This document shows, in pieces, positions 21,860-41,179 of a stretch of DNA of 64,000 nt. Where the stretch lies: assembly GCF_900099695.1 (NCBI RefSeq), contig NZ_FNCY01000005.1:124001-188000 (forward strand), read 5' to 3'. The notes under the pieces are model-generated. The model had not been told where the DNA came from. It worked only from the letters and a program-made list of their open reading frames with translations, and did no database searches. This stretch comes from Propionivibrio dicarboxylicus (lineage in GTDB: Bacteria > Pseudomonadota > Gammaproteobacteria > Burkholderiales > Rhodocyclaceae). Made by a program: the position numbers and the translations under genes. The first letter of the stretch is position 1, and the number at the start of each line of letters is the position of its first letter.

Positions 21860-22345
21860 TCAGTTGTCGGTAACCTGCACCCGGCGGGAGCGTTCGACGT
21901 AGCCGGGATTGGCCGCGGTAGCACTTGTGTCCGGGCAAGCGGCGGCATTGCATGCAACAGCGAGAATGGTGTAGATGCGAACGGTTTTGTCGACGCCGGG
22001 AACGGTTTCGCCTTCCTTGTAAAGTTGCGAAGGCGTGCAGGTCACCGTGACCCGGAAACCGGTTTGGGCGGTGAGGTCGAGTTCCGCCTTACGTGTTCCG
22101 GTATCGCAGTTCTCCCCAATATTCGCCGTCCAGTCCGATTTTTTGCGGGCTTTGTACAGCCCCCATTCGTTGCCGGCGCGCGCTGCCTGCCAGGCGTTGG
22201 CAGCGAGCAGGTCTTGGGCTGACGTCACTTGCTGCACCGAACCGACAGTGACCATTGCTGCGCCGAACAGCGCCAGGATAACCAGCACGACGATCGCCAT
22301 GATGGCGCCGAAACCGCGTTGGTTTGTGCGGGTGGCGGCGCTCAT
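21860..22345 (-). CDS. mshP: MSHA biogenesis protein MshP-like (PilX-type minor pilin)
   Basis: The 161-residue product has a short leader ending in QRGFGAIMAIVVLVILALFGA, the atypical prepilin/PilX-type start used by MshP and PilX instead of GFTLIE. After the hydrophobic helix is a small globular part with paired cysteines. It would be processed by prepilin peptidase and incorporated near the pilus tip. The start overlaps the mshO stop (ATGA at 22345-22342), showing coupling, and it is the last gene of the pilin operon. The call rests on the leader, the gene order C-D-O-P and length, so the exact symbol is moderately certain. Confidence 0.8.
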   Translation of the reverse strand: MSAATRTNQRGFGAIMAIVVLVILALFGAAMVTVGSVQQVTSAQDLLAANAWQAARAGNEWGLYKARKKSDWTANIGENCDTGTRKAELDLTAQTGFRVTVTCTPSQLYKEGETVPGVDKTVRIYTILAVACNAAACPDTSATAANPGYVERSRRVQVTDN

Positions 22346-23232
22346 GGCACGTTATCCACGTGTACGCCGTAGTTCAGCGCCACGCTTTCACCGTCGAGGC
22401 CGAGTTCCAGCCGCATCCAGAGCAGACCATTCTGCGATGTCATGCCGGTGCTCGGGCTATAGACGAAAGTGCAGTTGCTCACGTTCGTGGCGACGACGGC
22501 GCCATCCGTAGGGCAGCTATTTGTCGTACCCGTGTCGAAAGTGGCTACGGTTCGATAGAGCGTCCTACCGATGCAGTTATAGAAGACCGTCTGCTCGGCG
22601 TCGGCCACTGTAAAAAAGCGTCCGCCATCGTAGCCGGAGGGGAATTGCTTCGGCGTGACGGTCAGGCGAACCGTGCCGTCGCCAACCCGTGGTGCGCCGT
22701 TTGGCGAGGCCTGAGTGATGGCAGCGATCTGAGCGCGGTTGGTGCCTGCGTAAACATCATCGGCGTTCTGATTGTTGACGACGACCCAGTCGTTCTTTGC
22801 AGGTTGTCTCGGCAAGTCGGAGAGGATGTCGAAAGCGTCGCTCGCCTGCGTCGTATCAAGCGGTGCACTGCAGGTTGTCGGCGTACAGGACGTGACGTCG
22901 CTGGCGCGGTCCGGACCCGTACGATAGCGTCCGCCAACCTGAATCGGAACCAACTGGAAACAGTTGGCGCTGACCGAACGGATAGAATTGGGGACGGCGC
23001 GGCGGATGTCGTCGGCCATGCGCCGCAAGGCGGTATCGGCGGCGTCGGTGAGCGCAGCGCGGTTGCCGACGCTGGCATAGGCGTCGGTCGCAGGTTTCAG
23101 AAACATTGTCAGCGAACTGGCCAGGATACCGGTCAGTACGATGACAACGACGATCTCGACCAGCGTGAAGCCTTTCGGCCTGGCGCGGCCGAAGCGGTGC
23201 GCATCGAGACAATGGGGGCTGAGCGGGTTCAT
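22342..23232 (-). CDS. mshO: MSHA biogenesis protein MshO-like (type IV minor pilin)
   Basis: The best start is the ATG at 23232, overlapping the mshD stop (ATGA), giving 296 residues. The class III signal KGFTLVEIVVVIVLTGILASS starts near residue 20 and is preceded by a basic leader, as prepilin peptidase requires. The conserved PATDAYASVGNRAALTDAADTALRRMADDIRRAVPNS region is typical of MshO. The large C-terminal globular domain has several Cys. An ATG at 23253 would only lengthen the leader. It sits between mshD and mshP in the same operon. Confidence 0.86.
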   Translation of the reverse strand: MNPLSPHCLDAHRFGRARPKGFTLVEIVVVIVLTGILASSLTMFLKPATDAYASVGNRAALTDAADTALRRMADDIRRAVPNSIRSVSANCFQLVPIQVGGRYRTGPDRASDVTSCTPTTCSAPLDTTQASDAFDILSDLPRQPAKNDWVVVNNQNADDVYAGTNRAQIAAITQASPNGAPRVGDGTVRLTVTPKQFPSGYDGGRFFTVADAEQTVFYNCIGRTLYRTVATFDTGTTNSCPTDGAVVATNVSNCTFVYSPSTGMTSQNGLLWMRLELGLDGESVALNYGVHVDNVP

Positions 23233-23720
23233 TGCGCGTAGTTGGTTCGCCAACCGCTGAGCAGAATGTGCTCAGTGCCATGAACGACTGAGACGACCAC
23301 CTGCGCGGCGGCGCCACTTTGTGTTGTGATGTCGCCGAGCGCGTTATCGATCACGGTGACATGGACATTGTAGTTAACAAGCCCGGTGACAGGCTGCCCA
23401 TCAACATCGCAGATGCCAACGGTCTGGTAGTTGTTGTAGTCCTTGATGTCGTCGAACGTGGTGCGGGAGGGGGGGGGAGACACGCCGCAAGCCTTGGCAA
23501 CATTTACCGGCGCGTCACCGGAAACCGCAAAAGGCTTGATCAGCACCTCCTCGAGCATTTCCTCGGCAATTGCCAGCATCTGCTTGCGCACGAGCGGATC
23601 GGCGCTGTTGCGTACCGTGCTGTTGATGGCCATCAGCACGCCGGCAAAGCCGATGCTGATGATGACAATGGCAATCACCATCTCGATTAGCGTGAACCCA
23701 CGTGTTGTCTTAGAACACAC
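23229..23720 (-). CDS. mshD: MSHA biogenesis protein MshD-like (type IV minor pilin)
   Basis: I place the start at the GTG at 23720, giving 163 residues (VCSKTTRGFTLIEMVIAIV). This overlaps the mshC stop by 11 bases and puts the GFTLIE prepilin motif after a normal 7-residue basic leader. Longer in-frame starts would add about 43 residues that lie inside mshC. The hydrophobic helix and a segment like LVRKQMLAIAEEMLEEVLIKPF are typical of PilV/MshD proteins. A run of nine C (coding strand) at 23477-23469 encodes a Ser-Pro-Pro-Pro-Ser segment and could slip. Confidence 0.85.
   Translation of the reverse strand: MCSKTTRGFTLIEMVIAIVIISIGFAGVLMAINSTVRNSADPLVRKQMLAIAEEMLEEVLIKPFAVSGDAPVNVAKACGVSPPPSRTTFDDIKDYNNYQTVGICDVDGQPVTGLVNYNVHVTVIDNALGDITTQSGAAAQVVVSVVHGTEHILLSGWRTNYAQ
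23469..23477. repeat. Homopolymer tract of nine G (C on coding strand) inside mshD
   Basis: Nine consecutive G on the + strand, read as nine C in mshD, encode prolines about halfway through the protein. A one-base length change would truncate this minor pilin, which is the layout of a contingency (phase-variable) tract. Confidence 0.8.
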
Positions 23721-24168
23721 CGCCCGTTGCTCCGACGATGGTAATGCGTGCGCCACCGACGAAATCAATCGTCCGATTGCTCGTTGTGCCATTGGCAGCG
23801 AATGTGAACGATTCCGGTATTTCTGAAAACAGCGCTGTCGCAGCGCCACTGGCGATCTGGTTGCTGTTTGCGCTCGGGATCAGGAGTATGGTTTTGCAAT
23901 CGTCATTTGCAGCGACGTCGATGTTGAGCGACACACTATGCAAACCGGGAAAAGTGACACATACCGGTCGCCGGTGACTGACTGCCGTTTTCTGGGCGTA
24001 GCGCAAGGCCGCAAGAACACGGGTGTGGAATGCCGCCTGTTGAAAGGTCTCGGTTTCCATGCGCGGTATGGCGACGGCGGCGAGGATGCCGAGCACGGTG
24101 ATGACCGAAACGAGTTCGACCAGCGTGAAACCGCGCGCCAGTCGCCGTTCAGAAGGCGTCGTGAACAT
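23710..24168 (-). CDS. mshC: MSHA pilin-like protein MshC
   Basis: The ATG at 24168 gives 152 residues starting MFTTPSERRLARGFTLVELV, with the prepilin cleavage site and hydrophobic helix TVLGILAAVAIPR as in type IV pilins. The globular part is a short pilin head with a Cys pair. It overlaps the end of mshQ by 20 bases and the mshD start by 11, so the genes are tightly coupled. A longer frame reaching 24375 is inside mshQ and is not used. Confidence 0.85.
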   Translation of the reverse strand: MFTTPSERRLARGFTLVELVSVITVLGILAAVAIPRMETETFQQAAFHTRVLAALRYAQKTAVSHRRPVCVTFPGLHSVSLNIDVAANDDCKTILLIPSANSNQIASGAATALFSEIPESFTFAANGTTSNRTIDFVGGARITIVGATGGVF

Positions 24169-26995
24169 AGATGATTCTCCGCGTTTCCGGCGCATACACG
24201 CCGAAGGTTGCACGGGCCCAGGGGTCGCGGTCGTAGCTATTGGCGCAGTCGCCGTTGCGCGAACGCAGCCAGGGCATCGCGGCACCGGTGCCGCCATGGT
24301 TGTTGAGGCAGGAAACGTCGTTGCCCGAACTGCCGAGATTGACCGCGACATCGACACTGCCGGCCTTTCCGTCATTGGGGGCGCTCAATGTGATGTTGGC
24401 ATTGCCCCCGAAGAAGGTGACCGCGGACAGGACGTTGGTATTTGCCGCCAGACCGCCCGAGAGCGCGAAAGCCCCGCTTGGCAGCGCGGTGCAACTGTCG
24501 TCGCTGTTGATCACCCAGGACTTGCCGCTCCAGTATTGCGTCTGGAGCGGCATATTCAGATCGGTCTTGTTCGACCCGAGCGCGCTGAATAGTACGAGGC
24601 GGCCGCTGCGGATCTTGGTCGTTGCCTCGGTGTGGTCGCTTGAGGTCACGCCGTCTGTGTCGATTGCGCGCAGGCCGATGTTTGCCGGCGCACTGAGCTT
24701 GTCGGCGAAGGTATAGGTCGGCTTGAGGGTGGCGACGCCTCCGGCGATGGCGGCTGCCGCAATGGTGTTGTTGATCAGGTGTTGGGTCGAGTCGCTGGTA
24801 TCGGACAGAGTGACAGCCTTGGCCCAGTCTCCGCCATAGTTTCCGGTGGTCTTTCCTTGGCGTTCCCTAGCCGTGACTGTGACGGATTGAATTGCCTGGC
24901 CGGAATAGGTGAAGGCGGTGCCGCAGGCCGGGACGATCGGGGCGACGTCGAAATAGGCCGGCTTGAAGCCCCCGACATTAGCCTTAGTGCCGCTGACGTT
25001 AAGCACCGAGCCGAGATAGGCGGTAGTTGTCGCTGTCAGGTCGACGGTGCCGACCTCTTGCCAGATCGCGTTCGTGCTGGCGCCACCGCTGTTAAAGCCG
25101 GAGAGCGTGGTGCTGATTGCTGCGGCATTACCCTGTGCTGGCAATGGATTGCTCGACGTCAGCGTTGCGGTTGCCGCGCTTGTCTCTTTGCCGAAATTCG
25201 GTGTCACCGTGTTACAGGCGTTTTGCGCGGTGACGGTGACATTGAACGGATCGCCAGCGACCAGCGGTGCCGGTGGGAGGTCGGTGAGGGCGAAGTTGTC
25301 TGGTGCGACGACGAAGGGATTGCTCTTCCCCGAAAGCGATGATGTCTTTGCAAACAGGCTGACTTGTCCGGCATCAGCGTAGTAATTGAAGGTGATCTGT
25401 GCGTTGCCATTGGCGTCGAAATTCAGAGTTTTTGTCGTGGCTTTGGCTGTTAAGCCATTTTCGTTGCCGGCAATAGCGTCGCCGTTCAGAACCATCGCGT
25501 TGGTCAGACTACACGTTGTCGGATTATTACATTGATACCCAAAGTCAACGTTGCTTTGTCCGGTCAGCGCAGCTTTGCAAGTGCCATCGGTTGAACCGTT
25601 CTGTACGGCGCGAAGATAATAGTTCGTGTTGGTTTCGTGACCAGCGCAACCCGCTTTGATTGCCGGCAATGTTGTTGCCATCCCGCCGGGCGTGGACGAA
25701 ATAATGAAACCTGAGGTCTTGAGAATTTCATAGCAACTGCTGGCGGTGGAACAGGTGCTTTCGTCCTGGCAGCATTTGACGGTTTCTGTGACGTCCATCA
25801 GGGATACTTTGGCGGTGGTGTCGTCCGTAGCCGTTGGATAACTGAGCGTTGTACTGGCACTGCCGTTGGCGTCGAAAGTGAGTGATGTCGCGCCAAGTGT
25901 GCCCGCGGTCGTCGTCACTCTCACGCTGGAACCGTTGACAGCCGTGAAAGCGAATATGCAAGGCGCGGTAGCGCTTGCGCAGGCAGTCACCTTGATCGGC
26001 GATTTCTCGCAGGCGATGCCCACCGAAGGGAGTGAGAGTTCGTAGTGATCGGGGGTGTATTGGATACATCCAGGGATCGCTATGCCGCCGATCGCCGATC
26101 GGACAGCGCTGCTGAAATTGATGTCATTCGAGTTGTGGAGAAAGACTGTGCTTCCACTGAGAATAGCACCCGTGATGGTGCTGTTGTCATGAAAAAAAAT
26201 GCAGTTGTTGGAAGTGTCATTGTCGGAACATGAAGCAGCGTTGGGCGCGTAGATCAGGCCGTTGAAGATACCTCTGTCGTGGAAAAAGGCGGTGGCGCCG
26301 GCGTAAAGGTAGAGCTGGAGATTGGCGGTGGCGCCGGCGCTGTTGAAATCAAACGCGTCATGGACGGCAAGGCTGGAACCGATGAAGAGTCGCGTTACGC
26401 CGTTCGTCCTGATCGTAACGTCGTTATTTCCCTGGCCCGAGTCGAAATGCCGGATGAAATAGTCGCCAGCGCCGAGCGTGAGCGTTGTGGTGTTGCTGTT
26501 TATTTTTAATGCGTTGATGTAATAGGTGCCGGTGCCAAATGTGTAGTTGCCACCATTGCTCAGTGTGACCGTGTCGTACGAGCCAGCAGGTAGCGACTGC
26601 CCCGAAGATAGTGAGACATTTGTGTTGCCGGTATTCGGAAATGTACTGGGAGAAAACAGCGGCAAGGTCAGGGTGCCGGTTTGCACACTGGCGTTAACGG
26701 CATCGAGTGATCCTCCGTTTCCTTTCGTAATCTTCGAGTAACTGGTGCCATTGGTGCTGACCGTGTTGTCGTTTTCGGAAATGCTTAATCCGCCGCTTCC
26801 TGCGATGATTGGCGTCAGGACGTCATTGATCGTGATCGGAACCAGACAGGACGTCGCCCAGGCTGACGCAGGCAAACCAACCCCTCCGACAGCGAGCGTC
26901 ACGAGTGTCGCTGTCAGCAATGGGATGCCAAACTGCGCAAGCCGGGCCGAGCAGCCCATCGACATCGGCCGAGAGATACGAAAGATCATGGTCAT
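24149..26995 (-). CDS. mshQ: MshQ-like large secreted adhesin-type protein (DUF6701)
   Basis: This 948-residue protein has an N-terminal signal (about residues 1-46, ending ASAWA). A Thr/Ser/Asn-rich beta-solenoid-like part includes YAPNAASCSDND and GAILSGSTVFLHNSNDINF (about 60-330). Repeated Ig-like segments each contain an FDANG motif followed by a beta strand (for example SLTFDANGSAST and TLNFDANGNAQITFNYYAD). The C-terminal DUF6701-type end carries PWLR, DPWARATFGVYAPETRRIIYV. It matches MshQ of MSHA pilus loci. Here it is first in its operon, before mshC, whereas mshQ is usually last. Base composition is visibly less GC-rich than the rest of the window. The start could be the ATG at 26995 or at 26989. 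Confidence 0.84.
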   Translation of the reverse strand: MTMIFRISRPMSMGCSARLAQFGIPLLTATLVTLAVGGVGLPASAWATSCLVPITINDVLTPIIAGSGGLSISENDNTVSTNGTSYSKITKGNGGSLDAVNASVQTGTLTLPLFSPSTFPNTGNTNVSLSSGQSLPAGSYDTVTLSNGGNYTFGTGTYYINALKINSNTTTLTLGAGDYFIRHFDSGQGNNDVTIRTNGVTRLFIGSSLAVHDAFDFNSAGATANLQLYLYAGATAFFHDRGIFNGLIYAPNAASCSDNDTSNNCIFFHDNSTITGAILSGSTVFLHNSNDINFSSAVRSAIGGIAIPGCIQYTPDHYELSLPSVGIACEKSPIKVTACASATAPCIFAFTAVNGSSVRVTTTAGTLGATSLTFDANGSASTTLSYPTATDDTTAKVSLMDVTETVKCCQDESTCSTASSCYEILKTSGFIISSTPGGMATTLPAIKAGCAGHETNTNYYLRAVQNGSTDGTCKAALTGQSNVDFGYQCNNPTTCSLTNAMVLNGDAIAGNENGLTAKATTKTLNFDANGNAQITFNYYADAGQVSLFAKTSSLSGKSNPFVVAPDNFALTDLPPAPLVAGDPFNVTVTAQNACNTVTPNFGKETSAATATLTSSNPLPAQGNAAAISTTLSGFNSGGASTNAIWQEVGTVDLTATTTAYLGSVLNVSGTKANVGGFKPAYFDVAPIVPACGTAFTYSGQAIQSVTVTARERQGKTTGNYGGDWAKAVTLSDTSDSTQHLINNTIAAAAIAGGVATLKPTYTFADKLSAPANIGLRAIDTDGVTSSDHTEATTKIRSGRLVLFSALGSNKTDLNMPLQTQYWSGKSWVINSDDSCTALPSGAFALSGGLAANTNVLSAVTFFGGNANITLSAPNDGKAGSVDVAVNLGSSGNDVSCLNNHGGTGAAMPWLRSRNGDCANSYDRDPWARATFGVYAPETRRIIYVHDAF

Positions 26996-27295: not shown

Positions 27296-27721
27296 TCAGC
27301 CCGCCGCGCGCCTCACGCACTCAAGATACTGCATGCCGTCCAGCGTGCCGCCGCTGCGCTGGGCGCGCCAGAGCGCTTCGCCCAGGCATTCCATGATCGC
27401 GTGTTCGGCATCGTGCACATCGAGGCGCTGGCGCAACGCCTGGTAGGCGGCGAGGATGCCGGGGGGTTGGTCGATGCTGATCTGCTCGGCGATGGCGAGG
27501 TGCAGCGAGAGGTGCAGGAAAGGATTGGTCTGCCCGCCGTCGGGCGTGAATTCCTTTTCCTGCGCCTCTTCCGGACGCAAGAGCAGCGCGTGGTATTCCG
27601 GATGCTCGGCGATCAGGTCCGCCGCCGTGACCTCGGCGCCGTCGAGCGGCAGTCGCTCGACGTGCTTGCGCCACGCTCCGCAGAAGAACTGGCGAACCTG
27701 TTCGCGCGTCGGATTGAACAT
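27296..27721 (-). CDS. DUF1841 family protein
   Basis: The 141-residue protein starts MFNPTREQVRQFFCGAW and contains the ILAAYQALRQR and DAEHAIMECLGEALWRAQR segments found in the DUF1841 family, which is common in Beta- and Gammaproteobacteria and has no known function. It is soluble and acidic, with no signal peptide. It lies 5 bases downstream of pyrD and is therefore probably the last gene of the pyrimidine operon. Whether it contributes to pyrimidine metabolism or is only co-transcribed is unknown. Confidence 0.86.
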   Translation of the reverse strand: MFNPTREQVRQFFCGAWRKHVERLPLDGAEVTAADLIAEHPEYHALLLRPEEAQEKEFTPDGGQTNPFLHLSLHLAIAEQISIDQPPGILAAYQALRQRLDVHDAEHAIMECLGEALWRAQRSGGTLDGMQYLECVRRAAG

Positions 27722-27726
27722 GTGCG

Positions 27727-28650
27727 TCAGACCTTCAGCGCGCCGATCAGGTTGCGGATGTCGGTCTCGCCCTGCGCCAGCATCCAGGCTTCCATGTCCT
27801 CGACAATTTTTTGCGCCGCGCCCGGATTGATGAAGCTGGCCGTGCCAACCTGAATGGCCGAGGCGCCGGCAAGCAGGAATTCGAGCGCGTCGGTGGCGTT
27901 CATGATGCCGCCGATGCCGATCACCGGCACCTTGACCGACTTGGCGACGAGCCAGACCATGCGCAGCGCGACCGGTTTCACTGCCGGGCCGGAGAGGCCG
28001 CCGGTGACGTTGGCGAGGATCGGCTTGCGCTTGTTGAGATCGATGGCCATGCCGATCAGCGTGTTGATCAACGACAGCGCGTCGGCGCCGGCGTCCTCGC
28101 AGGCCTTTGCCATCGCGACGATGTCAGTGACATTGGGCGAGAGCTTGACGAAGAGCGGCTTCTTCGTCGCCGCGCGGCAGGCCTTGACGATGCTGCCGGC
28201 GCAGTCGGGGTCGGTGCCGAAGATGATGCCGCCCTGGCGTACGTTGGGGCAGGATATGTTCATTTCCAGTGCGGCGACTTCCGGCAGGGCGTCGAGGCGT
28301 GCCGCCATTTCGGCGTATTCCTCGGGTGTCTCGCCGAAGAAGTTGACGATGCACGGCGTGTCGACCGAGCGGATGAAGGGCAGCTTCTTCTCGATGAAGG
28401 CGTCTATGCCGACGTTCTGAAGGCCGATGGCGTTGAGCATGCCGCCAGGGGTCTCGACGATGCGCGGTGTCGGGTTGCCGGTGCGCGGATGCAGGCAGAG
28501 GCCCTTGGTGATGTAGGCGCCGAGCCGGGTGAGGTCGACGTATTCGGAGAACTCTTCGCCGTAGCCGAAGGTGCCGGAGGCGGTCATGACCGGGTTGCGC
28601 AGGTCGAGGCCGGCGACGCGGACATTCATGTTGACGGTCTTCTCGCTCAT
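27727..28650 (-). CDS. pyrD: Dihydroorotate dehydrogenase, class 1B catalytic subunit
   Basis: This FMN enzyme interconverts dihydroorotate and orotate and passes electrons through PyrK to NAD. The ATG at 28650 overlaps the pyrK stop (ATGA) and gives 307 residues. Class 1 features are LRNPVMTASGTFGYGEE near the start, the catalytic Cys in EMNISCPNVRQGG (class 2 enzymes have Ser), KLSPNVTDI, SLINTLIGMAID, GGLSGPAVKP and VIGIGGI for phosphate binding. The partner pyrK directly upstream fixes it as class 1B. Most Betaproteobacteria rely on the quinone-linked class 2 enzyme, so this is unusual. Confidence 0.95.
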   Translation of the reverse strand: MSEKTVNMNVRVAGLDLRNPVMTASGTFGYGEEFSEYVDLTRLGAYITKGLCLHPRTGNPTPRIVETPGGMLNAIGLQNVGIDAFIEKKLPFIRSVDTPCIVNFFGETPEEYAEMAARLDALPEVAALEMNISCPNVRQGGIIFGTDPDCAGSIVKACRAATKKPLFVKLSPNVTDIVAMAKACEDAGADALSLINTLIGMAIDLNKRKPILANVTGGLSGPAVKPVALRMVWLVAKSVKVPVIGIGGIMNATDALEFLLAGASAIQVGTASFINPGAAQKIVEDMEAWMLAQGETDIRNLIGALKV

Positions 28651-29471
28651 GCAGAGGCTCCCCACTTCAGTTCGCTGGATTCGAATACCGGTCCCTCGGC
28701 GCAGACGCAGCGGTAGTCCGGGGTGTGCGCCGAGTGGTTCTTGCCCGGCGTGACGCAACCGAGGCAGGCGCCGACGCCGCAGGCCATCGCTGCTTCGAGC
28801 GAGACCTGGCAAGGCAGCGCACGGTCGGCGGCGATCTTGGCGACGGCGCGCAGCATCGGGTCGGGGCCGCAGGCGTAGAGCGTCGCCTTCTTGCCGGCGA
28901 GTGCATCGAGGTGCTGGTTCAGGGCGACGGTGACGAAGCCGGTGGCGCCGTGCGAGCCGTCTTCGGTCGCCGTGTGGCAGTCGACGCCGAGTCGTTCGAA
29001 CTCGTCGAGGCAGAGCAGGTCGTTGCGGCTGCGACCGCCGGCGAACAGGCGCACCGGCGAGTTGCGCTTGACGAGTTCGCGCGCCAGCAGGTAGAGCGGT
29101 GCAAGGCCGATGCCGCCGCCGACGAGCAGTTTTTCCTCATCGTCATCGCCGAAAACGAAGCCCTGACCGAGCGGACCGAGGATGTCGACGCTGTCGCCGC
29201 CGTGCAGGCGCGAGAGCAGCGTCGTGCCTTTGCCGACGACCTTGTAGAGCATCTCGAAATGGACCGTCGTCGTGCCGTCGGCCTTGGTTGTGCTGCCGAC
29301 GTCATAGACGGCGAAGGGGCGGCGCAGCAGCGGGTCGATGCTGCCGCCGACGCGGACCATGACGAACTGTCCCGGCGTGGCTGCGGCGAAGGCCGCTGGC
29401 GCGGTCAGACGAATGCGCCAGTAATTCGGCGACATCTCGACGTTGGACAGGATTGTCGAATTGAATTCCAT
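28647..29471 (-). CDS. pyrK: Dihydroorotate dehydrogenase electron-transfer subunit PyrK
   Basis: PyrK is the FAD and 2Fe-2S subunit linking PyrD to NAD(H). The 274-residue protein has the flavin-binding RRPFAVYDV motif (about residues 50-58), the NAD-binding LLVGGGIGLAPLY, and YACGPDPMLRAVA. A C-terminal cysteine cluster ACGVGACLGCV...YRCVCAEGPVF matches the PyrK 2Fe-2S loop. Length is normal. It overlaps pyrD by 4 bases. The gap to the upstream small gene is about 100 bases. Confidence 0.95.
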   Translation of the reverse strand: MEFNSTILSNVEMSPNYWRIRLTAPAAFAAATPGQFVMVRVGGSIDPLLRRPFAVYDVGSTTKADGTTTVHFEMLYKVVGKGTTLLSRLHGGDSVDILGPLGQGFVFGDDDEEKLLVGGGIGLAPLYLLARELVKRNSPVRLFAGGRSRNDLLCLDEFERLGVDCHTATEDGSHGATGFVTVALNQHLDALAGKKATLYACGPDPMLRAVAKIAADRALPCQVSLEAAMACGVGACLGCVTPGKNHSAHTPDYRCVCAEGPVFESSELKWGASA

Positions 29472-29573
29472 GAAACTTCTCCAGATGAGGCGTTGCGCGG
29501 CCCCGGCGCGCGACCGGAGCGGGTCCGGGCGGCGCGGTGTTGGCGCGTCTTGCGGAAATGACGTCGGGGTGGC

Positions 29574-29900
29574 TTAGAAACTTGGAACGCGGAACTGGTA
29601 GTCGCTTGCCACTTCGCCGAGCAGCGTCAGCCGCGTCGTCGGGTCGGCGGCGAGCGCCGCGCAGATTTTCTGGCAGAAACCGACCATCGTCGCCTTGGCG
29701 CCTTCGGCAAATTCGGTCGTCACCGCCTGGTCTTCGTAGCGAATGACGTAGGCATGGGCGGCGACGCCGATGACGAAATAGAGCGCGGCGTTGGCGGCGT
29801 CGCTTTTCATGAGTTCGAAGGCGTCCTTGTAGAGGCGCTTGAAATCGTCGGTGCCGCCGCCGGAGCGTTCGAATTGGGCTGCAGTGTCTTGGAAGTTCAT
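29574..29900 (-). CDS. Conserved-looking small protein in the pyr operon, unknown function
   Basis: The ATG at 29900 overlaps the stop of the OPRT-like gene (ATGA), and an AAGGACTCC ribosome-binding site precedes it, giving 108 residues. The product is helical and soluble: an N-terminal DTAAQFERSGG segment, then FKRLYKDAFELM, a mildly hydrophobic helix around YFVIGVAAHAYVIRYED, and a C-terminal QKICAALAADP region. It has no signal peptide, metal motif or known fold that I can name. Tight coupling to the phosphoribosyltransferase gene upstream and pyrK downstream argues that it is real and linked to this pathway. Confidence 0.72.
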   Translation of the reverse strand: MNFQDTAAQFERSGGGTDDFKRLYKDAFELMKSDAANAALYFVIGVAAHAYVIRYEDQAVTTEFAEGAKATMVGFCQKICAALAADPTTRLTLLGEVASDYQFRVPSF

Positions 29901-30616
29901 AGGAGTCCTTTCGTTTCGGTTTTGGCGGATGACTTGCCTCCGTGGACGTGCGACCACTGGATCGGATCGGCCAGGAAGGTTTCCAGTTCGGCCAGTTCGC
30001 GCGTCTGGAAGCTCGCGCTTTCGCGCGCGGCGACGAGGATGTCCTGCCACGTCGCCAACGAGTGGACGGTGACGCCCATCGTGTCGAGTACGTTCCTGGT
30101 CGGGAACGTACCGTAATCGAATATAACGAAAACGTCCTTGACCAGCAATTCGGCTTCGGCGATCGCCAGGCAGCAGTTGACGATCGAGCGTCCGCCCGAC
30201 ATCAGGTCATCGACGAGGACGACCGATTCGCCCGGCCGGACGACGCCGACGACCTGGCGTCCCGGGCCGAGGCCCTTGCGCTGCTTGCGCACGTATTGCA
30301 TCGGCAGTTCGAGCGCGTCGGCGATCCAGGCCGCCAGTGCGATGCCGCTGGCCTCGGCGCCGGCGACCGCGGAGACGCCGTCGAGGCCATGACGTTTGCG
30401 CAGCAGGTTGAGGGCGTAGCCGACCAGCGTGCGGCGGATTTCCGGAAATGAAATCAGGCGGCGGCATTCGATATAGACCGGGCTTGCCCAGCCCGACGGC
30501 AGTCGGAACGGTTCGTCGGTATGAACTTCGATGCAGCCGGTGGACAGCAGGGCGAGCGATACTTCGCGCGCGATGCGGGCGTCTTCGGCGTCTCGGGGCG
30601 GAAGGGCGGATGTCAC
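29897..30616 (-). CDS. pyrE: Orotate phosphoribosyltransferase-like protein (divergent PyrE)
   Basis: OPRT joins orotate to PRPP to give OMP. The start is a GTG at 30616 with a strong GGAGG site about 8 bases upstream, overlapping the regulator's stop (GTGA). The 239-residue product has FRLPSGWASPVYIECRRL near the N-terminus, the VAGAEASGIALAAWIAD helix, and the PRPP motif VVLVDDLMSGGRS (about residues 132-144). The mobile catalytic loop reads VRKQRKGLGPG: the RK..K residues are kept but the His usual in RKxxKxHG is Leu. A C-terminal extension of about 25 residues is present. Substrate is inferred from motifs and the pyrDK neighbourhood. Confidence 0.8.
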   Translation of the reverse strand: MTSALPPRDAEDARIAREVSLALLSTGCIEVHTDEPFRLPSGWASPVYIECRRLISFPEIRRTLVGYALNLLRKRHGLDGVSAVAGAEASGIALAAWIADALELPMQYVRKQRKGLGPGRQVVGVVRPGESVVLVDDLMSGGRSIVNCCLAIAEAELLVKDVFVIFDYGTFPTRNVLDTMGVTVHSLATWQDILVAARESASFQTRELAELETFLADPIQWSHVHGGKSSAKTETKGLL

Positions 30617-31560
30617 GGCATACCTCCGGGGGTGGGTGAAATCGGGTCTCGGGTTCGTTTCAACAGTTTACGCAGTTGCGCCGCGCCCGTCTTGCCTTTC
30701 AGCGCTTCCTGCCAGAGACGGTTGGCCATCGCTTCGTAGAGCCGGACGGCTTCGGGCGCCGCGGTGATCGTCGCGATGCCGTTGCGGATGCTTGGCATTT
30801 CGCCGAGGCGGAAAGGGCTGACGGCGAGCATCGTGCGCTGCGGCGTGGTCAGAAGCTGGAATGAGGTCGCCGGCATGGCTTCCTCGACGAGCGCGATCTG
30901 CGTATTCATCGGGGCGTTTTCCATCAACGTCGCGATGCGCTCGATTTCCTTGCGGGCAGCGAGGATGCGCTGCTGACGGACGGCTTCGTCGAGCGAGAGC
31001 GTGCCGACGAGGCCGGTCTCGAGGAAGCGCTCGAGTTCGCGCAGGCCGATCAGGCTGACGATGTTCGGGTGGCGCGACGAGAACGTGGTCTTGCGCTCGC
31101 GCAGGAGATTGATAATGCCATTGACCTCCTCGCGATGCGGATCGCGCCCGGCTTCCGTCGCCGGGCTCGATTCCATCAGCATCGTGCGAAGATAGTCGAG
31201 ATAGGCGTCGGAGGCGAGCAGGAGGGAGATCGGCTCGAAATGCGCGACGATCCGTTCGGCATTTTCCTCGATCTGGCGCACGCGTTCGAGGAAGCCGAGC
31301 GCGGTCGGGTAATACTCGACTTCGACGCCGAGCAGCGAGGGCATCGAGGTGCCGAGTACTTCGGCGAGTCGCTCCAGCGTCTCGATCTTGACGATCTTGC
31401 CCTGTTCCATGCGGTAGAGCGCGGCGCGCGAGATGCCGAGCTGCGCCGCGACTTCCTCGGCGAGCATCGATGTGCCGATGCGGTGCGCACGCAGGCGGCG
31501 ACCGAGTTCCTCGTAGTCGATCGACGAGGGCGCGGGGTGTTGGGCGGCGGTCGGCGTCAT
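30613..31560 (-). CDS. XRE-family transcriptional regulator with large effector-like domain
   Basis: The 315-residue protein has an N-terminal helix-turn-helix of the XRE/Cro type at about residues 17-72 (LRAHRIGTSMLAEEVAAQ, GISRAALYRMEQGKI). A 240-residue helical domain follows that I do not recognise, presumably sensing a ligand or mediating oligomerisation. It starts 10 bases downstream of the carbamoylase gene and ends overlapping the OPRT-like start, so it is transcribed within the operon it likely controls. A palindrome at 34342-34357 upstream of the first gene is the best operator candidate. Confidence 0.87.
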   Translation of the reverse strand: MTPTAAQHPAPSSIDYEELGRRLRAHRIGTSMLAEEVAAQLGISRAALYRMEQGKIVKIETLERLAEVLGTSMPSLLGVEVEYYPTALGFLERVRQIEENAERIVAHFEPISLLLASDAYLDYLRTMLMESSPATEAGRDPHREEVNGIINLLRERKTTFSSRHPNIVSLIGLRELERFLETGLVGTLSLDEAVRQQRILAARKEIERIATLMENAPMNTQIALVEEAMPATSFQLLTTPQRTMLAVSPFRLGEMPSIRNGIATITAAPEAVRLYEAMANRLWQEALKGKTGAAQLRKLLKRTRDPISPTPGGMP

Positions 31561-31570
31561 CGGCGTATGC

Positions 31571-32827
31571 TCAGCGGATCTCCTGGATGCCCTGATGCAG
31601 TACCTGGACGCCGGCCATGAAGTCGCCGATGTCCATCGCTTCCTCGGGATTGTGCGAGCCGTTCTGGTTGCGCACGAAGACCATGCCGCTCGGGATGCCG
31701 GCGTTGGCGAACATCGAGGCGTCGTGACCGGCGCCGCTCGGCAGAACTTCGAAGGGCGTGCCGAGTTCGGTGCAGACCTTGGACAGCAGCGTGCACAGGC
31801 TGGGGTCCATCGTCGCCGGGCTCGACAGGATGCGGCGGTCGAATTCGAAGCGCACCTGGCGCTCGCGGCTGATCGCCGTGCATTCGGCGCGCATCAGCTG
31901 GTAGAAGGCTTCGAGCGTGTCGATGCTCTTGCTGCGCACTTCGAAGCTGAACTTGACGTGGCCGGGGATGCGCGAGGCGGCATGCTCGGCGGCATTGGTC
32001 GACAGCATGCCGGTGGTGACGACGAGGTCGGTGCCGCGTTCGAGCAGTTCGCTCCAGTGTTCGTCGACGCGCATGATCAGGTCGGCGACGGCGAACATGG
32101 CGTCGCGTCGCAGCCAGCGCGGGATCGCGCCCGAGTGGCCGGAGGCGCCGAAACACTGCACGTGGTTGTGGCGGATATTGCCGCGGATGCCCGAGACGAC
32201 GGCGACCGGCAGCTTGCGCGCTTCCATGACCGGGCCTTGCTCGATATGCAATTCGAGAAAGGCGCGAACCTTCTTCGGATCGAAGAGCAGGCGCTGGGCG
32301 GCGATAGCCTCCATGTCGGCGCCGATGCGTTCCATGCACTGGCCGAGCGTTTCGCCGCTGTCGCGGTGGCGCAGCGCCAGGTCTTCGGCTTCGAGTTGGC
32401 CGAGCAGCGCGCCGGAGCCGACATAGGCTTTGCCGAACCAGGCGCTTTCTTCGCCGCGGAAACCGAGGACCTGCAGCGGGATCGGTGAGCGGACGCCGCT
32501 ACGCTGCTGTTCGAGCAGGCAGAGCAGGCCGGCGACGACGCCGGCGAGGCCATCGAAATTGCCGCCCTGCGGCACCGAGTCGATGTGCGAGCCGCACCAG
32601 ATCGTTGGCGCATCGGCCGGCGTGTCGGCAAAACCGATGACGAGGTTGCCGGCGCGGTCGGCGCTGACCTTGAATCCGGCATCGGTGGCAAAAGCGCGCA
32701 GGAAGTCGGCCGTTGCCGTTTCCTTGGTGCCGTAGCTGTCGCGCGAGACGCCGACGCCGTCGAAACTGAGGGCGCGGATGTCGTCGAAGAGCTTTTCCGC
32801 GATCGGGCGTAGTGTCTTGGTATCCAT
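31571..32827 (-). CDS. M20-family Zn amidohydrolase (carbamoylase/ureidosuccinase type)
   Basis: This family hydrolyses N-carbamoyl amino acids (or allantoate/ureidoglycolate) to amino acid, CO2 and ammonia. The 418-residue protein has all metal ligands in order: His in CGSHIDSV, Asp in GGNFDG, the Glu pair in GEESAWFG, His in LHIEQGP and His in GAGHDASM. The lid-domain GSHNPEEAM segment is also present. These are features of HyuC/AmaB/UAH-like enzymes. Placed in front of OPRT, PyrK and PyrD, the likely substrate is N-carbamoyl-L-aspartate, which would make it a ureidosuccinase. Carbamoyl-beta-alanine or hydantoin-derived substrates are the alternatives. Confidence 0.85.
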   Translation of the reverse strand: MDTKTLRPIAEKLFDDIRALSFDGVGVSRDSYGTKETATADFLRAFATDAGFKVSADRAGNLVIGFADTPADAPTIWCGSHIDSVPQGGNFDGLAGVVAGLLCLLEQQRSGVRSPIPLQVLGFRGEESAWFGKAYVGSGALLGQLEAEDLALRHRDSGETLGQCMERIGADMEAIAAQRLLFDPKKVRAFLELHIEQGPVMEARKLPVAVVSGIRGNIRHNHVQCFGASGHSGAIPRWLRRDAMFAVADLIMRVDEHWSELLERGTDLVVTTGMLSTNAAEHAASRIPGHVKFSFEVRSKSIDTLEAFYQLMRAECTAISRERQVRFEFDRRILSSPATMDPSLCTLLSKVCTELGTPFEVLPSGAGHDASMFANAGIPSGMVFVRNQNGSHNPEEAMDIGDFMAGVQVLHQGIQEIR

Positions 32828-32963
32828 GAAGAGTCCCCGGGAATTTCTCCGCGCTGCGGTCAGTGATGTCGCCGTCCGCCGGCGGCCGGTGTTGGCAAAT
32901 GCGTTGGTAAATGAGTCGGTTGGGCGTTCATGACGTTGATTTCAGGAAACACCGGCCCCGCGG

Positions 32964-32982
32964 GGCAGGCGCGAGGCCTGCC
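32964..32982. other. Hairpin in the MFS-carbamoylase gap
   Basis: A 7-bp stem GGCAGGC/GCCTGCC with a 5-base loop sits in the 185-base gap after the MFS stop codon. It has no T-run, so it is more likely an mRNA-stability or attenuation element than a full terminator. The operon may still read through. Confidence 0.45.
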
Positions 32983-33012
32983 GCCGTCGGGTTCGGCGCG
33001 TTGAAAGTTGGC

Positions 33013-34245
33013 TTACTTGAGTTCGCTGCCCTTGAGTTCGGGAACGAGGAAGATCGTCGCGATCATGTCGATGATGTAGATCGCCGCCAGTGTGCCGATG
33101 GCGATCGGGAACGAGTACGACTGGACCAGCATGCCGACAACAACCGGGCCGAAACCGCCGACACCGCGGCCGATGTTGAACAGCGTATTCTGCGCCGTGG
33201 CGCGGGCTTCGGTCGGGTAGGCCTCGGCCATCAGCGCACCGTAGCCGCCGAGCATGCCGTTGACGAACATGCCGAGCAGGGCGCCGGCCCAGAGCATCGT
33301 GTTCGGGTCGTTCAGGCTCGAATAGAACAGCACCATGACAACGGCGCCGGCCTGGAAGAGCAGGAAGCTCGGCTTGCGGCCGATGCGGTCGGCAAGCTGG
33401 CCGAAAGCCCAGATCCCGGCCATCATGCCGAGGATGGTGACGGCGGTCCACATCGACGAGCGGGTGAGGTTGAAGCCGAGTTGCTTGGACAGGAAATTCG
33501 GCATCCAGATCATGATGCCGTAGTAACCGAAGTTCTGCACCGAGCAGAGTACGACGATGCCGGCACTGATCTTGGTGGTGGCCTTGTCCTTGATCAGCAG
33601 CTTGAAGGACTCGACGAAGGTACGGCGCTTGGCGGTGCTCTTGACGAAGAGTTCCGGCTCATGCAGACGGCTCCGGATGACCCAGGCGATCAAGGCCGGG
33701 ATGACGCCGACGAGGAACATGCCGCGCCAGCCGATGGTTGGCAACAGCGCCGGAGTGATCAGCGCGGCGCCAAGCACGCCGACCTGCCAGCCAAGGCCGA
33801 CGTACGAGGTGGCACGGGCACGGGCGTGGGCCGGCCATGCTTCGGCGGCCAGCGCCATGCCGATGCCGAATTCGCCGCCAAGGCCGATACCGGCGATGGT
33901 GCGATAGACGAGCAGGTCCCAGTAGCCGTTGGCGAAGGCGCAGAGACCGGTGAAGAGGGCGAACATGACGATCGTCCAGGTCAGCACGCGGATACGTCCA
34001 TAGACGTCGCTGAGCGCGCCGAAGATGATGCCGCCGGCAACGGCGCCGATCAGCGTCCAGGTCACCAGCGACCCGGCCTGCGCTGCCGTCAGGTGCAGAT
34101 CGGCCGATATCGCCGAGAGCATGAAGCCGAGAATCAGCAGGTCAAAGCCGTCCATCGCGTACCCGACCGTCGATCCGGCCAGCGCTTTCCAGCCGTAACT
34201 GCTGACCTTGCCGTCGGCGGGCGGAGGATTGGAATTCGTTTCCAT
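33013..34245 (-). CDS. MFS transporter (aromatic-acid:H+ symporter-like)
   Basis: This is a 12-helix inner-membrane major facilitator. The ATG at 34245 (410 residues, METNSNPPPADGK) is preferred, since an upstream ATG at 34329 lies in the probable promoter region. Family features are GYAMDGFDLLILGFMLSAI in helix 1 (with the conserved Asp), GALSDVYGRIRV in the loop between helices 2 and 3, RTIAGIGLGGEFGIGMALAAE in helix 4-5, and a second half-repeat LADRIGRKPSF. The pattern is that of acid symporters such as those for benzoate, sialate or shikimate. In this operon it may import orotate, dihydroorotate or carbamoyl-aspartate (inference). Confidence 0.87.
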   Translation of the reverse strand: METNSNPPPADGKVSSYGWKALAGSTVGYAMDGFDLLILGFMLSAISADLHLTAAQAGSLVTWTLIGAVAGGIIFGALSDVYGRIRVLTWTIVMFALFTGLCAFANGYWDLLVYRTIAGIGLGGEFGIGMALAAEAWPAHARARATSYVGLGWQVGVLGAALITPALLPTIGWRGMFLVGVIPALIAWVIRSRLHEPELFVKSTAKRRTFVESFKLLIKDKATTKISAGIVVLCSVQNFGYYGIMIWMPNFLSKQLGFNLTRSSMWTAVTILGMMAGIWAFGQLADRIGRKPSFLLFQAGAVVMVLFYSSLNDPNTMLWAGALLGMFVNGMLGGYGALMAEAYPTEARATAQNTLFNIGRGVGGFGPVVVGMLVQSYSFPIAIGTLAAIYIIDMIATIFLVPELKGSELK

Positions 34246-34341
34246 GTCGTGTGTCTCCCAAAGAGGTAATGAAATAGTGCCGGTCGGGTGATGCAGGTTA
34301 CGTGCCAATGGAAAGCGCGGCGTGTACAAAAAAAGATACCA

Positions 34342-34357
34342 GTCTAATTTTATAGAC
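34342..34357. promoter_or_regulatory. Palindromic candidate operator upstream of the MFS gene
   Basis: GTCTA-ATTTTA-TAGAC is a dyad with 5-bp arms and a 6-base A/T centre, located about 97-112 bases upstream of the MFS start. On the minus strand its centre reads TATAAAAT, a -10-like sequence, so a bound repressor would cover the promoter. The XRE regulator in the same operon is the natural ligand. Confidence 0.5.
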
Positions 34358-34503
34358 GCAAGTGTCCTATGGCATCTGGATGAGCGAAAGATGCCGGGTA
34401 ATGCGATTCGGATGGACGCGAGTGGCGCCGGATGCCGTCCGGGGGTCGGCGGCGCACCACTTCAGGGCCGCTGCACCGCGGTGGGGCGGGGCTAAGGGGA
34501 AAT

Positions 34504-41044: not shown

Positions 41045-41179
41045 GTTTTAAGGGGGGGCGAAAGGCGGTGCCCGGAACGGTCAGGGGCGCAAAGGCGGCT
41101 GTAAAACCTGACGATTATCCCATTCCCGGCGAAGGCCTTCAACCATGCCACCGGCGAGGGTTTGGGCCGGGGCCGATGT

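Follow-up and report, generated by a model that had tools for sequence, protein, structure and literature searches.

A run of genes in a 64,000-nucleotide stretch of the Propionivibrio dicarboxylicus genome (contig NZ_FNCY01000005.1, positions 124,001 to 188,000 of the forward strand; hereafter the window) encodes a major facilitator superfamily (MFS) importer, an M20-family carbamoylase, an XRE regulator, an orotate phosphoribosyltransferase (OPRT)-like protein, a small protein, ORF5 (ORF, open reading frame), and both subunits, PyrK and PyrD, of a class 1B dihydroorotate dehydrogenase (DHODH). We are fairly confident, from sequence comparison, that this block is an orotate-utilisation operon with the M20 enzyme as its candidate ureidosuccinase, and the block, a real, conserved and mobile unit, most likely serves orotate use. 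With rather less assurance, we propose that it represents an undescribed orotate catabolic module that has spread horizontally in Proteobacteria, with a dedicated importer, an Arg286-bearing ureidosuccinase branch of the M20 family, an XRE regulator and operator of its own, and ORF5, and that one genus then lost its class 2 pyrD. The chemistry of this pathway is known. Its genetic form we have not found described: one open-access library yielded no description of an operon of this kind, and one may be in print elsewhere.

All eight ORFs of the run, from the MFS gene to a gene for a DUF1841 protein, are intact and lie on the minus strand (34245 down to 27296), and all products except ORF5 matched a family, as a preliminary description of this DNA had read them. 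The junctions, in order from MFS to DUF1841, measure +185, +10, -4, -4, +102, -4 and +5 bases, three of them 4-base overlaps. That description had put most junctions at 4-base overlaps or gaps under about 100 bases, which holds for five of the seven; the ORF5-PyrK gap comes close and the MFS-M20 gap does not. It had also named a class 1B PyrDK and an M20 enzyme of the type that hydrolyses carbamoyl amino acids, and both assignments stand. PyrD reached 448.8 bits with NF005574 (cut-off 269), compared with 144.9 bits for the PreA model (cut-off 335), and has the active-site motif NISCPN; PyrK exceeded the cut-offs of PF10418 and PF00175 and has four Fe-S cysteines (C-x4-C-x2-C-x15-C), while none of the PyrK equivalog models reached its cut-off (best score 195.8 vs 314). 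The M20 enzyme scored 275.6 bits with TIGR01879 (cut-off 204) and keeps the motifs GSHIDS, GGNFDG, GEES, HIEQGP and GAGHDA, which we take to belong to the metal site. The gene order is conserved at 96-99% protein identity in L051 and at 66-83% in two Accumulibacter-type blocks, L004 and L003 (whose contig stops within PyrK), a conservation that, on these identities, is more than chance.

The same gene set recurs on plasmids. Relatives of the M20, XRE and MFS proteins were present in 77 (E<=1e-80), 73 (E<=1e-25) and 72 (E<=1e-100) PLSDB records, 53 of each from Klebsiella, and relatives of the OPRT-like protein in 21 (E<=1e-20), none from Klebsiella; this survey covers the plasmid records alone. 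Sixteen records were opened, including one from Klebsiella, and 11 of them carry importer, PyrK, PyrD and M20 together: Klebsiella (L087), Variovorax (L088, L089, L099), Cupriavidus (L090), Roseicitreum (L091), Nitratireductor (L092), Pseudomonas putida (L093), Agrobacterium (L094), Paracoccus (L095) and Roseomonas (L101). These plasmids span alpha-, beta- and gammaproteobacteria, and ten of them (all but L101) have the XRE gene too. A Neorhizobium plasmid (L096) has XRE, PyrK, PyrD and M20 with no importer matched, L097 combines XRE and a weak MFS match with an M20 that is in two parts, and L098 has a distant M20 (30%) and XRE. The OPRT-like gene, missing in the stretches read for Klebsiella, P. 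putida and Agrobacterium, is thus optional among blocks, and the constant element would seem to be catabolism, not salvage. Milk is rich in orotate, and on a Klebsiella plasmid from milk the block adjoins lactose genes; other Klebsiella plasmid records come from patients and waste water. Compared with E. coli genomes, the Klebsiella M20 gene gave no near DNA match. On two Variovorax plasmids, molybdopterin oxidoreductase and reductase genes with a GntR regulator adjoin the block (L088:13455-16795, L089:12412-15774).

A residue signature sets the M20 enzymes of these blocks apart. The window enzyme matched 18 solved sequences and shares with L-N-carbamoylases, allantoate amidohydrolases and beta-ureidopropionases (PDB 3n5f, 1z2l, 8c46, 1r3n) the family, the metal-site motifs and an Arg at position 298. 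In the five alignments shown of these 18, however, the Asn of their N-[VTS]-I-P motif is replaced by S285, followed by Arg286 where they have Val, Thr or Ser. We compared this position in every M20 enzyme found in the loci, minus same-gene copies (L041, L053, L055, L061, L063-L067, L073). Arg286 is present in all 29 M20 enzymes encoded beside PyrK/PyrD or PyrC/PyrE, down to 45% identity (the window, L003-L010, L012, L015-L018, L020, L051, L071, L087-L096, L099 and L101). The seven others have Val (L056-L058, L098), Lys (L059, L060) or Arg (L097). Those of L056-L058 are 52-54% identical to the window enzyme, closer than some Arg286 carriers, and by eye lie beside amino-acid ABC importer-like genes, and those of L059 and L060 near genes resembling 5-oxoprolinase subunits. 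The Paraburkholderia L097 enzyme (L097:3810-5023) is an unclear case, with Arg yet no PyrKD detected in its stretch; it aligns in two pieces, so the gene may be broken. We infer that Arg286 binds the second carboxylate of carbamoyl-aspartate, and from this residue and the gene context the M20 enzyme is a candidate ureidosuccinase (EC 3.5.1.7). In L063-L065, M20 relatives lacking Arg286 lie beside amino-acid ABC importer-like genes, and their substrate may be another carbamoyl amino acid.

Many of the 29 loci with a pyrimidine-linked M20 also hold other steps of the proposed route. Twenty-one of them have PyrK as well as PyrD (L003 ends within PyrK, L010 begins within M20), and a dihydroorotase is encoded in cis in 17 (L087-L090, L099, L093, L010, L012, L015, L016, L005-L009, L017 and L018; that of L093 is annotated and of another type). 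PyrDK, dihydroorotase and M20 all fall within one block in L087-L089. The preliminary description had a dihydroorotase gene missing from the window, which fits the stretches seen; two candidates lie elsewhere in the genome, a multifunctional-type pyrC_multi beside pyrB (C29:706953-708131) and a dimeric-type PyrC on C23 (L052), 55% identical to the PyrC of L006.

Chromosomal relatives show how the block varies. A scan of genome contigs with the OPRT-like protein gave 37 loci; M20 is present in 14, L003 and L004 among them, and was not detected in the other 23. Rhodospirillaceae-type loci are ordered M20-PyrC-PyrE, with PyrKD in L017. In Defluviicoccus (L012, L015, L016; L010 starts within M20) the order is PyrK-PyrD-M20-PyrC-PyrE, and an NMT1-type ABC importer comes next (identified by family scan in L015 and by eye elsewhere). 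Ferrovibrio (L020) has PyrK-PyrD-M20-PyrE-XRE, with a nucleoside hydrolase of inosine-uridine type and an NMT1 ABC importer nearby. The same enzymes are accompanied by importers of different types, MFS, TRAP (L091, L092, L095) and NMT1-type ABC (L015, L020), which speaks for the orotate reading. G613, from another family of the same order, has MFS-PyrK-PyrD-M20-XRE-OPRT-ORF5, together with a canonical PyrE (178 bits) and a class 2 PyrD (421.9 bits, the profile match crossing a stop at residue 336 of 341, near the end). G122 likewise has a class 2 PyrD (351.8 bits) and a canonical PyrE (187.3 bits), so in both genomes the block is accessory. Related genomes had been proposed as the place to look for the same block, and it was indeed found in L003, L004, L051, G122 and G613 as well as on plasmids. 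It is rare in a random genome draw: among 398 Pseudomonadota genomes evenly drawn, M20 occurred at E<=1e-90 in six (its own and five outside such a block in the stretches read) and XRE at E<=1e-30 in two (its own and one beside unrelated genes), and ORF5 occurred in two of 300 genomes of the order, its own and G613. In Rhodospirillaceae-type genomes, a sulfopyruvate-decarboxylase-like pair of thiamine pyrophosphate subunits (L006:2769-4423, with a rhodanese in L006; also in L005, L007-L009, L011 and L017) precedes XRE-M20-PyrC-PyrE or PyrC-PyrE.

The host genome (G000; 4.53 Mb, 98.6% complete) suggests how the block may have come to its present place. Class 2 PyrD (TIGR01036) is above cut-off in 115 of 121 family genomes searched. 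The six without it include the three genomes of the genus (G000, G052, G105); of the other three, G065 has a 78-bit fragment at the edge of a contig, G074 scores just 67 bits and G093, which is 52% complete, gave no match. The suggested search for a separate class 2 pyrD was thus positive for the family, G613 and G122 and negative for G000, G052 and G105. No second full-length PF01180 enzyme was found in the genome, the only match besides the window PyrD covering 43 positions, while a canonical PyrE (182 bits) lies elsewhere. The OPRT-like gene is therefore a second copy and PyrDK is not, and PyrDK, as the only DHODH found, must also serve biosynthesis. We surveyed the class 2 pyrD region (about 19 kb) of ten family members with single-contig genomes and found no block genes there. 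Upstream is bpt in eight (one 1.7 kb apart), downstream rnfA in seven (one 1.3 kb apart), and in six nth and DUF1841 follow rnf. In the window, only 135 bases (41045-41179) separate bpt from rnfA, where relatives have class 2 pyrD; by synteny, this is a clean loss from the bpt-rnfA slot. The block sits at the opposite end of rnf, between nth/HD and DUF1841, and G122 (L053, L054) has both class 2 pyrD beside rnfA and a block beyond nth/HD. It looks as though the block was gained first and class 2 pyrD lost afterwards. DUF1841, near nth and downstream of rnf in six of the ten relatives, is probably an ancestral resident neighbour outside the pathway; on this synteny it was rejected as a pathway gene, against its earlier listing among the genes of the operon. 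The source genus is known for cycling between anaerobic and aerobic conditions.

The window PyrK is 70-72% identical within its own group, compared with 27-32% to G613 and alphaproteobacterial blocks and 29-36% to plasmid blocks, and the window PyrD is 39-51% identical to PyrD of other blocks. Two distinct PyrK lineages are thus each paired with block genes, which also favours the orotate reading, and since the window pair comes from another lineage than that of the other blocks, PyrK-PyrD may have been exchanged in the window lineage. The OPRT-like protein stays below the OPRT model cut-offs (NF001729, 227.5 bits vs 245; TIGR00336, 96 vs 106.8), yet its motifs SGWASPVY, VRKQRKG and VVLVDDLMSGG, which we take for the orotate and phosphoribosyl pyrophosphate motifs with the catalytic-loop lysines, align with alphaproteobacterial PyrE. 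It is 81% identical to the OPRT of L003, and judging by this value the source genome would be close to Accumulibacter. The importer, below cut-off for TIGR00895 (354.9 bits vs 418.55), is 74-78% identical to those in the Klebsiella, Variovorax and Cupriavidus blocks. ORF5 had no Pfam or NCBIfam match at E<=0.001. Its relatives are 47-58% identical in the Klebsiella, Variovorax (L088, L089) and G613 blocks; that of P. putida aligns over 84 residues at 29%. In L091, L092 and L095 the small genes found at its position gave no ORF5 match at E 1. The predicted structure is a helical bundle (mean predicted local distance difference test (pLDDT) 83.5), with 62 PDB matches at E<=10 and none at E<=0.001.

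A possible operator lies in the block promoter. The stretch TTGCGT-N17-TATCTT upstream of the MFS gene has the same 17-base spacing in L051, L003 and L004, amid otherwise poorly aligned intergenic DNA. The palindrome GTCTATAAAATTAGAC occurs there as the single match in the window at up to three mismatches (0.06 expected) and, in the alphaproteobacterium L020, with two mismatches within the block promoter (0.01 expected for the locus). Of its 16 positions, 16 are identical in L051, 15 in L004, 14 in L020 and L093, 13 in L003, L090 and L091, and 12 in L071, L087 and L092. An enrichment test on 13 further block loci gave a summed share of 7.7 for best matches within block promoters; the sole best match lay inside in seven (L020, L071, L087, L090-L093), with ties inside and outside in L094 and L095. 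None of 300 shuffled motifs (mean 1.4, maximum 6.25) and none of 300 palindromic shuffles (mean 1.2, maximum 6.1) reached this value; the score was 7.3 for an idealised palindrome with GTCTAAAA arms. The window group and L020 were already known when the motif was fixed, so that L020 does not count as independent evidence, and the promoter intervals were our own choice. The palindrome recurs in block promoters of three classes, though not in every block, and the XRE protein may bind it. The C-terminal domain of this protein is weakly PLD/TrmB-like (model mean pLDDT 81.5), with weak PLD-like Foldseek matches, two at E<=0.001, and TrmBL2 at 0.004; an HxK motif is absent from the protein. Inverted repeats in the MFS-M20 gap were rejected as a conserved feature, one being common to L051 and none to L003 or L004. 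In G479 (L068:8925-12574), an XRE relative (40%) precedes genes that by eye are sulfurtransferase-like and cystathionine lyase-like, so the regulator family may serve other pathways too.

Several observations weigh against an orotate-utilisation operon. PyrDK is the sole DHODH found in the genus, and the window alone cannot tell catabolic from biosynthetic use; G052, of the same genus, has PyrK-PyrD-DUF1841 (70-77% identical), with none of the other five genes in the stretch read. In six loci of alphaproteobacteria (L005-L009, L018), M20 occurs with PyrC and PyrE but with no PyrKD in the stretch, and the orotate route needs PyrKD. Five of these genomes were searched: in each, TIGR00336 has no match above 40 bits other than the block PyrE, and in three no pyrC_multi exceeds its cut-off, so that PyrE, and in those three PyrC too, look like housekeeping genes. 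In a tree of 21 M20 enzymes (16 block and 5 other, plasmid M20s excluded), the block enzymes do not form one clean clade; the label needs two changes, and one origin is possible. Plasmid records of Burkholderia (L100, near gallate genes) and Caballeronia (L102) have the MFS alone, 69% and 64% identical and block-free in the stretch read; the importer family is therefore not bound to orotate. The best palindrome match lies outside the block promoters in L088, L089, L096 and L099, and the idealised palindrome GTCTATAA/TTATAGAC scores only 3.8 in the enrichment test.

The sole DHODH, G052 and the alphaproteobacteria with M20 beside a seemingly sole PyrC and PyrE would suit a de novo pyrimidine operon, in which PyrDK and OPRT make uridine monophosphate (UMP) and M20 and MFS are passengers, or M20 is an overflow valve that destroys excess carbamoyl-aspartate. 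We consider this unlikely, since G613 and G122 have the block in addition to class 2 PyrD and canonical PyrE, the plasmid blocks of Klebsiella, P. putida and Agrobacterium retain importer, PyrDK and M20 while lacking OPRT in the stretch read, and a conserved importer does not fit a valve; because of G613, G122 and the plasmid copies, biosynthesis by the whole operon was rejected as the main function. The earlier suggestion of orotate import with breakdown or salvage is well supported by genome comparison, though it holds in part only: the same set is found on plasmids and in genomes that keep housekeeping genes, often with dihydroorotase in cis, while PyrDK must also serve biosynthesis here and the OPRT-like gene is optional. 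It is more doubtful still that the substrate is dihydroorotate or N-carbamoyl-aspartate, both imported, with PyrDK oxidising the former and M20 hydrolysing the latter; the six loci without PyrKD and the TRAP importers, which suit small organic acids, would agree with this, but both PyrDK genes are present in most M20 loci (the 21 of 29 above) and an MFS of the aromatic-acid family fits orotate better. That the M20 enzyme serves hydantoin, beta-ureidopropionate or allantoate breakdown, linked to pyrimidine genes by chance, is very improbable: its best NCBIfam model is indeed named 'allantoate amidohydrolase' (NF006771, 399.3 bits, cut-off 399) and the genome has a dihydropyrimidinase-type hydantoinase gene (C29:679792-681057), but the AllC equivalog TIGR03176 gave 188.8 bits (cut-off 597.75), many genera show the linkage to PyrDK, PyrC or PyrE, and the genome, having no second full-length PF01180 enzyme, offers no PydA/PreA candidate, on which ground a beta-ureidopropionase role was rejected. 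At 656-682 kb of C29 (L046, L047, L049), YgfK-like, SsnA-like and dihydropyrimidinase-type genes form a cluster resembling a purine or hydantoin breakdown set.

The orotate route that we favour has a precedent in Clostridium (Zymobacterium) oroticum, whose fermentation of orotate through dihydroorotate and ureidosuccinate to aspartate was described biochemically long ago. The same three reactions, NAD-linked orotate reduction, dihydroorotase and ureidosuccinase, are proposed here, and PyrDK, M20 and the two dihydroorotase candidates encoded in this genome would make up such a set, the M20 substrate being assigned by inference. Here, however, the genes form one block in Proteobacteria, often plasmid-borne, with an importer, XRE and often ORF5 and OPRT, and the ureidosuccinase candidate is an M20 enzyme; we know of no gene or sequence assigned to ureidosuccinase, the last enzyme of orotate breakdown. 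Reductive uracil breakdown (PydA, PydB and PydC/beta-ureidopropionase) follows a parallel logic of reductase, cyclic amidohydrolase and carbamoylase, whereas the reductase here is a type 1B DHODH. PyrD and PyrK, the latter with its FAD/NAD and 2Fe-2S domains, resemble the Lactococcus-type class 1B enzyme but are encoded with an importer and a carbamoylase.

In the proposed mechanism, the XRE protein would bind the promoter palindrome and respond to a pathway metabolite, and the MFS carrier would bring in orotate or a close relative such as dihydroorotate. PyrDK, class 1B by sequence, would use NADH to reduce orotate to dihydroorotate, dihydroorotase (encoded elsewhere in this genome and in the operon in many relatives) would open the ring to N-carbamoyl-L-aspartate, and the M20 enzyme would convert this to aspartate, ammonia and CO2. 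The second OPRT may divert part of the orotate to orotidine monophosphate and UMP, and in the window lineage PyrDK would also run in the biosynthetic direction. E. coli and Salmonella are reported to take up external orotate via DctA and to use it via OPRT (PMC13328217). A Lactococcus class 1 pyrK-pyrD pair was introduced into P. putida with the aim of making pyrimidine synthesis independent of the electron transfer chain; the strain with pyrK-pyrD alone is reported to have underperformed and one with two further gene sets to have done better (PMC6805499). This fits a benefit of replacing class 2 PyrD, without proving it.

Features of the block, in window coordinates, with proposed roles.
Feature	Position	Strand	Basis
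Promoter-like stretch TTGCGT-N17-TATCTT, 5' of the MFS gene	34332..34361	-	conserved in L051, L003, L004
Palindrome GTCTATAAAATTAGAC, 5-base arms, proposed XRE operator	34342..34357	-	motif scan and enrichment test
MFS importer, aromatic acid/H+ symporter (AAHS)-like, proposed orotate importer	33013..34245	-	410 aa; TIGR00895
M20 carbamoylase, proposed N-carbamoyl-L-aspartate amidohydrolase (ureidosuccinase)	31571..32827	-	418 aa; TIGR01879; Arg286 signature
XRE regulator	30613..31560	-	315 aa; HTH_31 46.3 bits; HTH_3
Second OPRT-like gene, alphaproteobacterial type, GTG start	29897..30616	-	239 aa; NF001729; Pribosyltran
ORF5, all-helical protein, travels with many blocks	29574..29900	-	108 aa; relatives in other blocks; helical model
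PyrK, FAD/NAD/2Fe-2S subunit	28647..29471	-	274 aa; PF10418, PF00175; C-x4-C-x2-C-x15-C
PyrD, class 1B dihydroorotate dehydrogenase	27727..28650	-	307 aa; NF005574; NISCPN and GMLN motifs
DUF1841 protein, resident neighbour	27296..27721	-	141 aa; PF08897; synteny in relatives

Next to the block, window positions 21860-26995 hold several ORFs with pilin-like N-termini (GFTLVE) and one 948-residue protein, perhaps a pilus biogenesis cluster.

To conclude, the block offers a concrete ureidosuccinase candidate that comes with a residue signature as well as an importer, a regulator and a possible operator, and through this candidate a long-known enzyme activity would gain its gene. The trait is found on plasmids, including a Klebsiella milk plasmid beside lactose genes, and the window presents a clear case of an NAD-linked DHODH where relatives have the quinone-linked enzyme.

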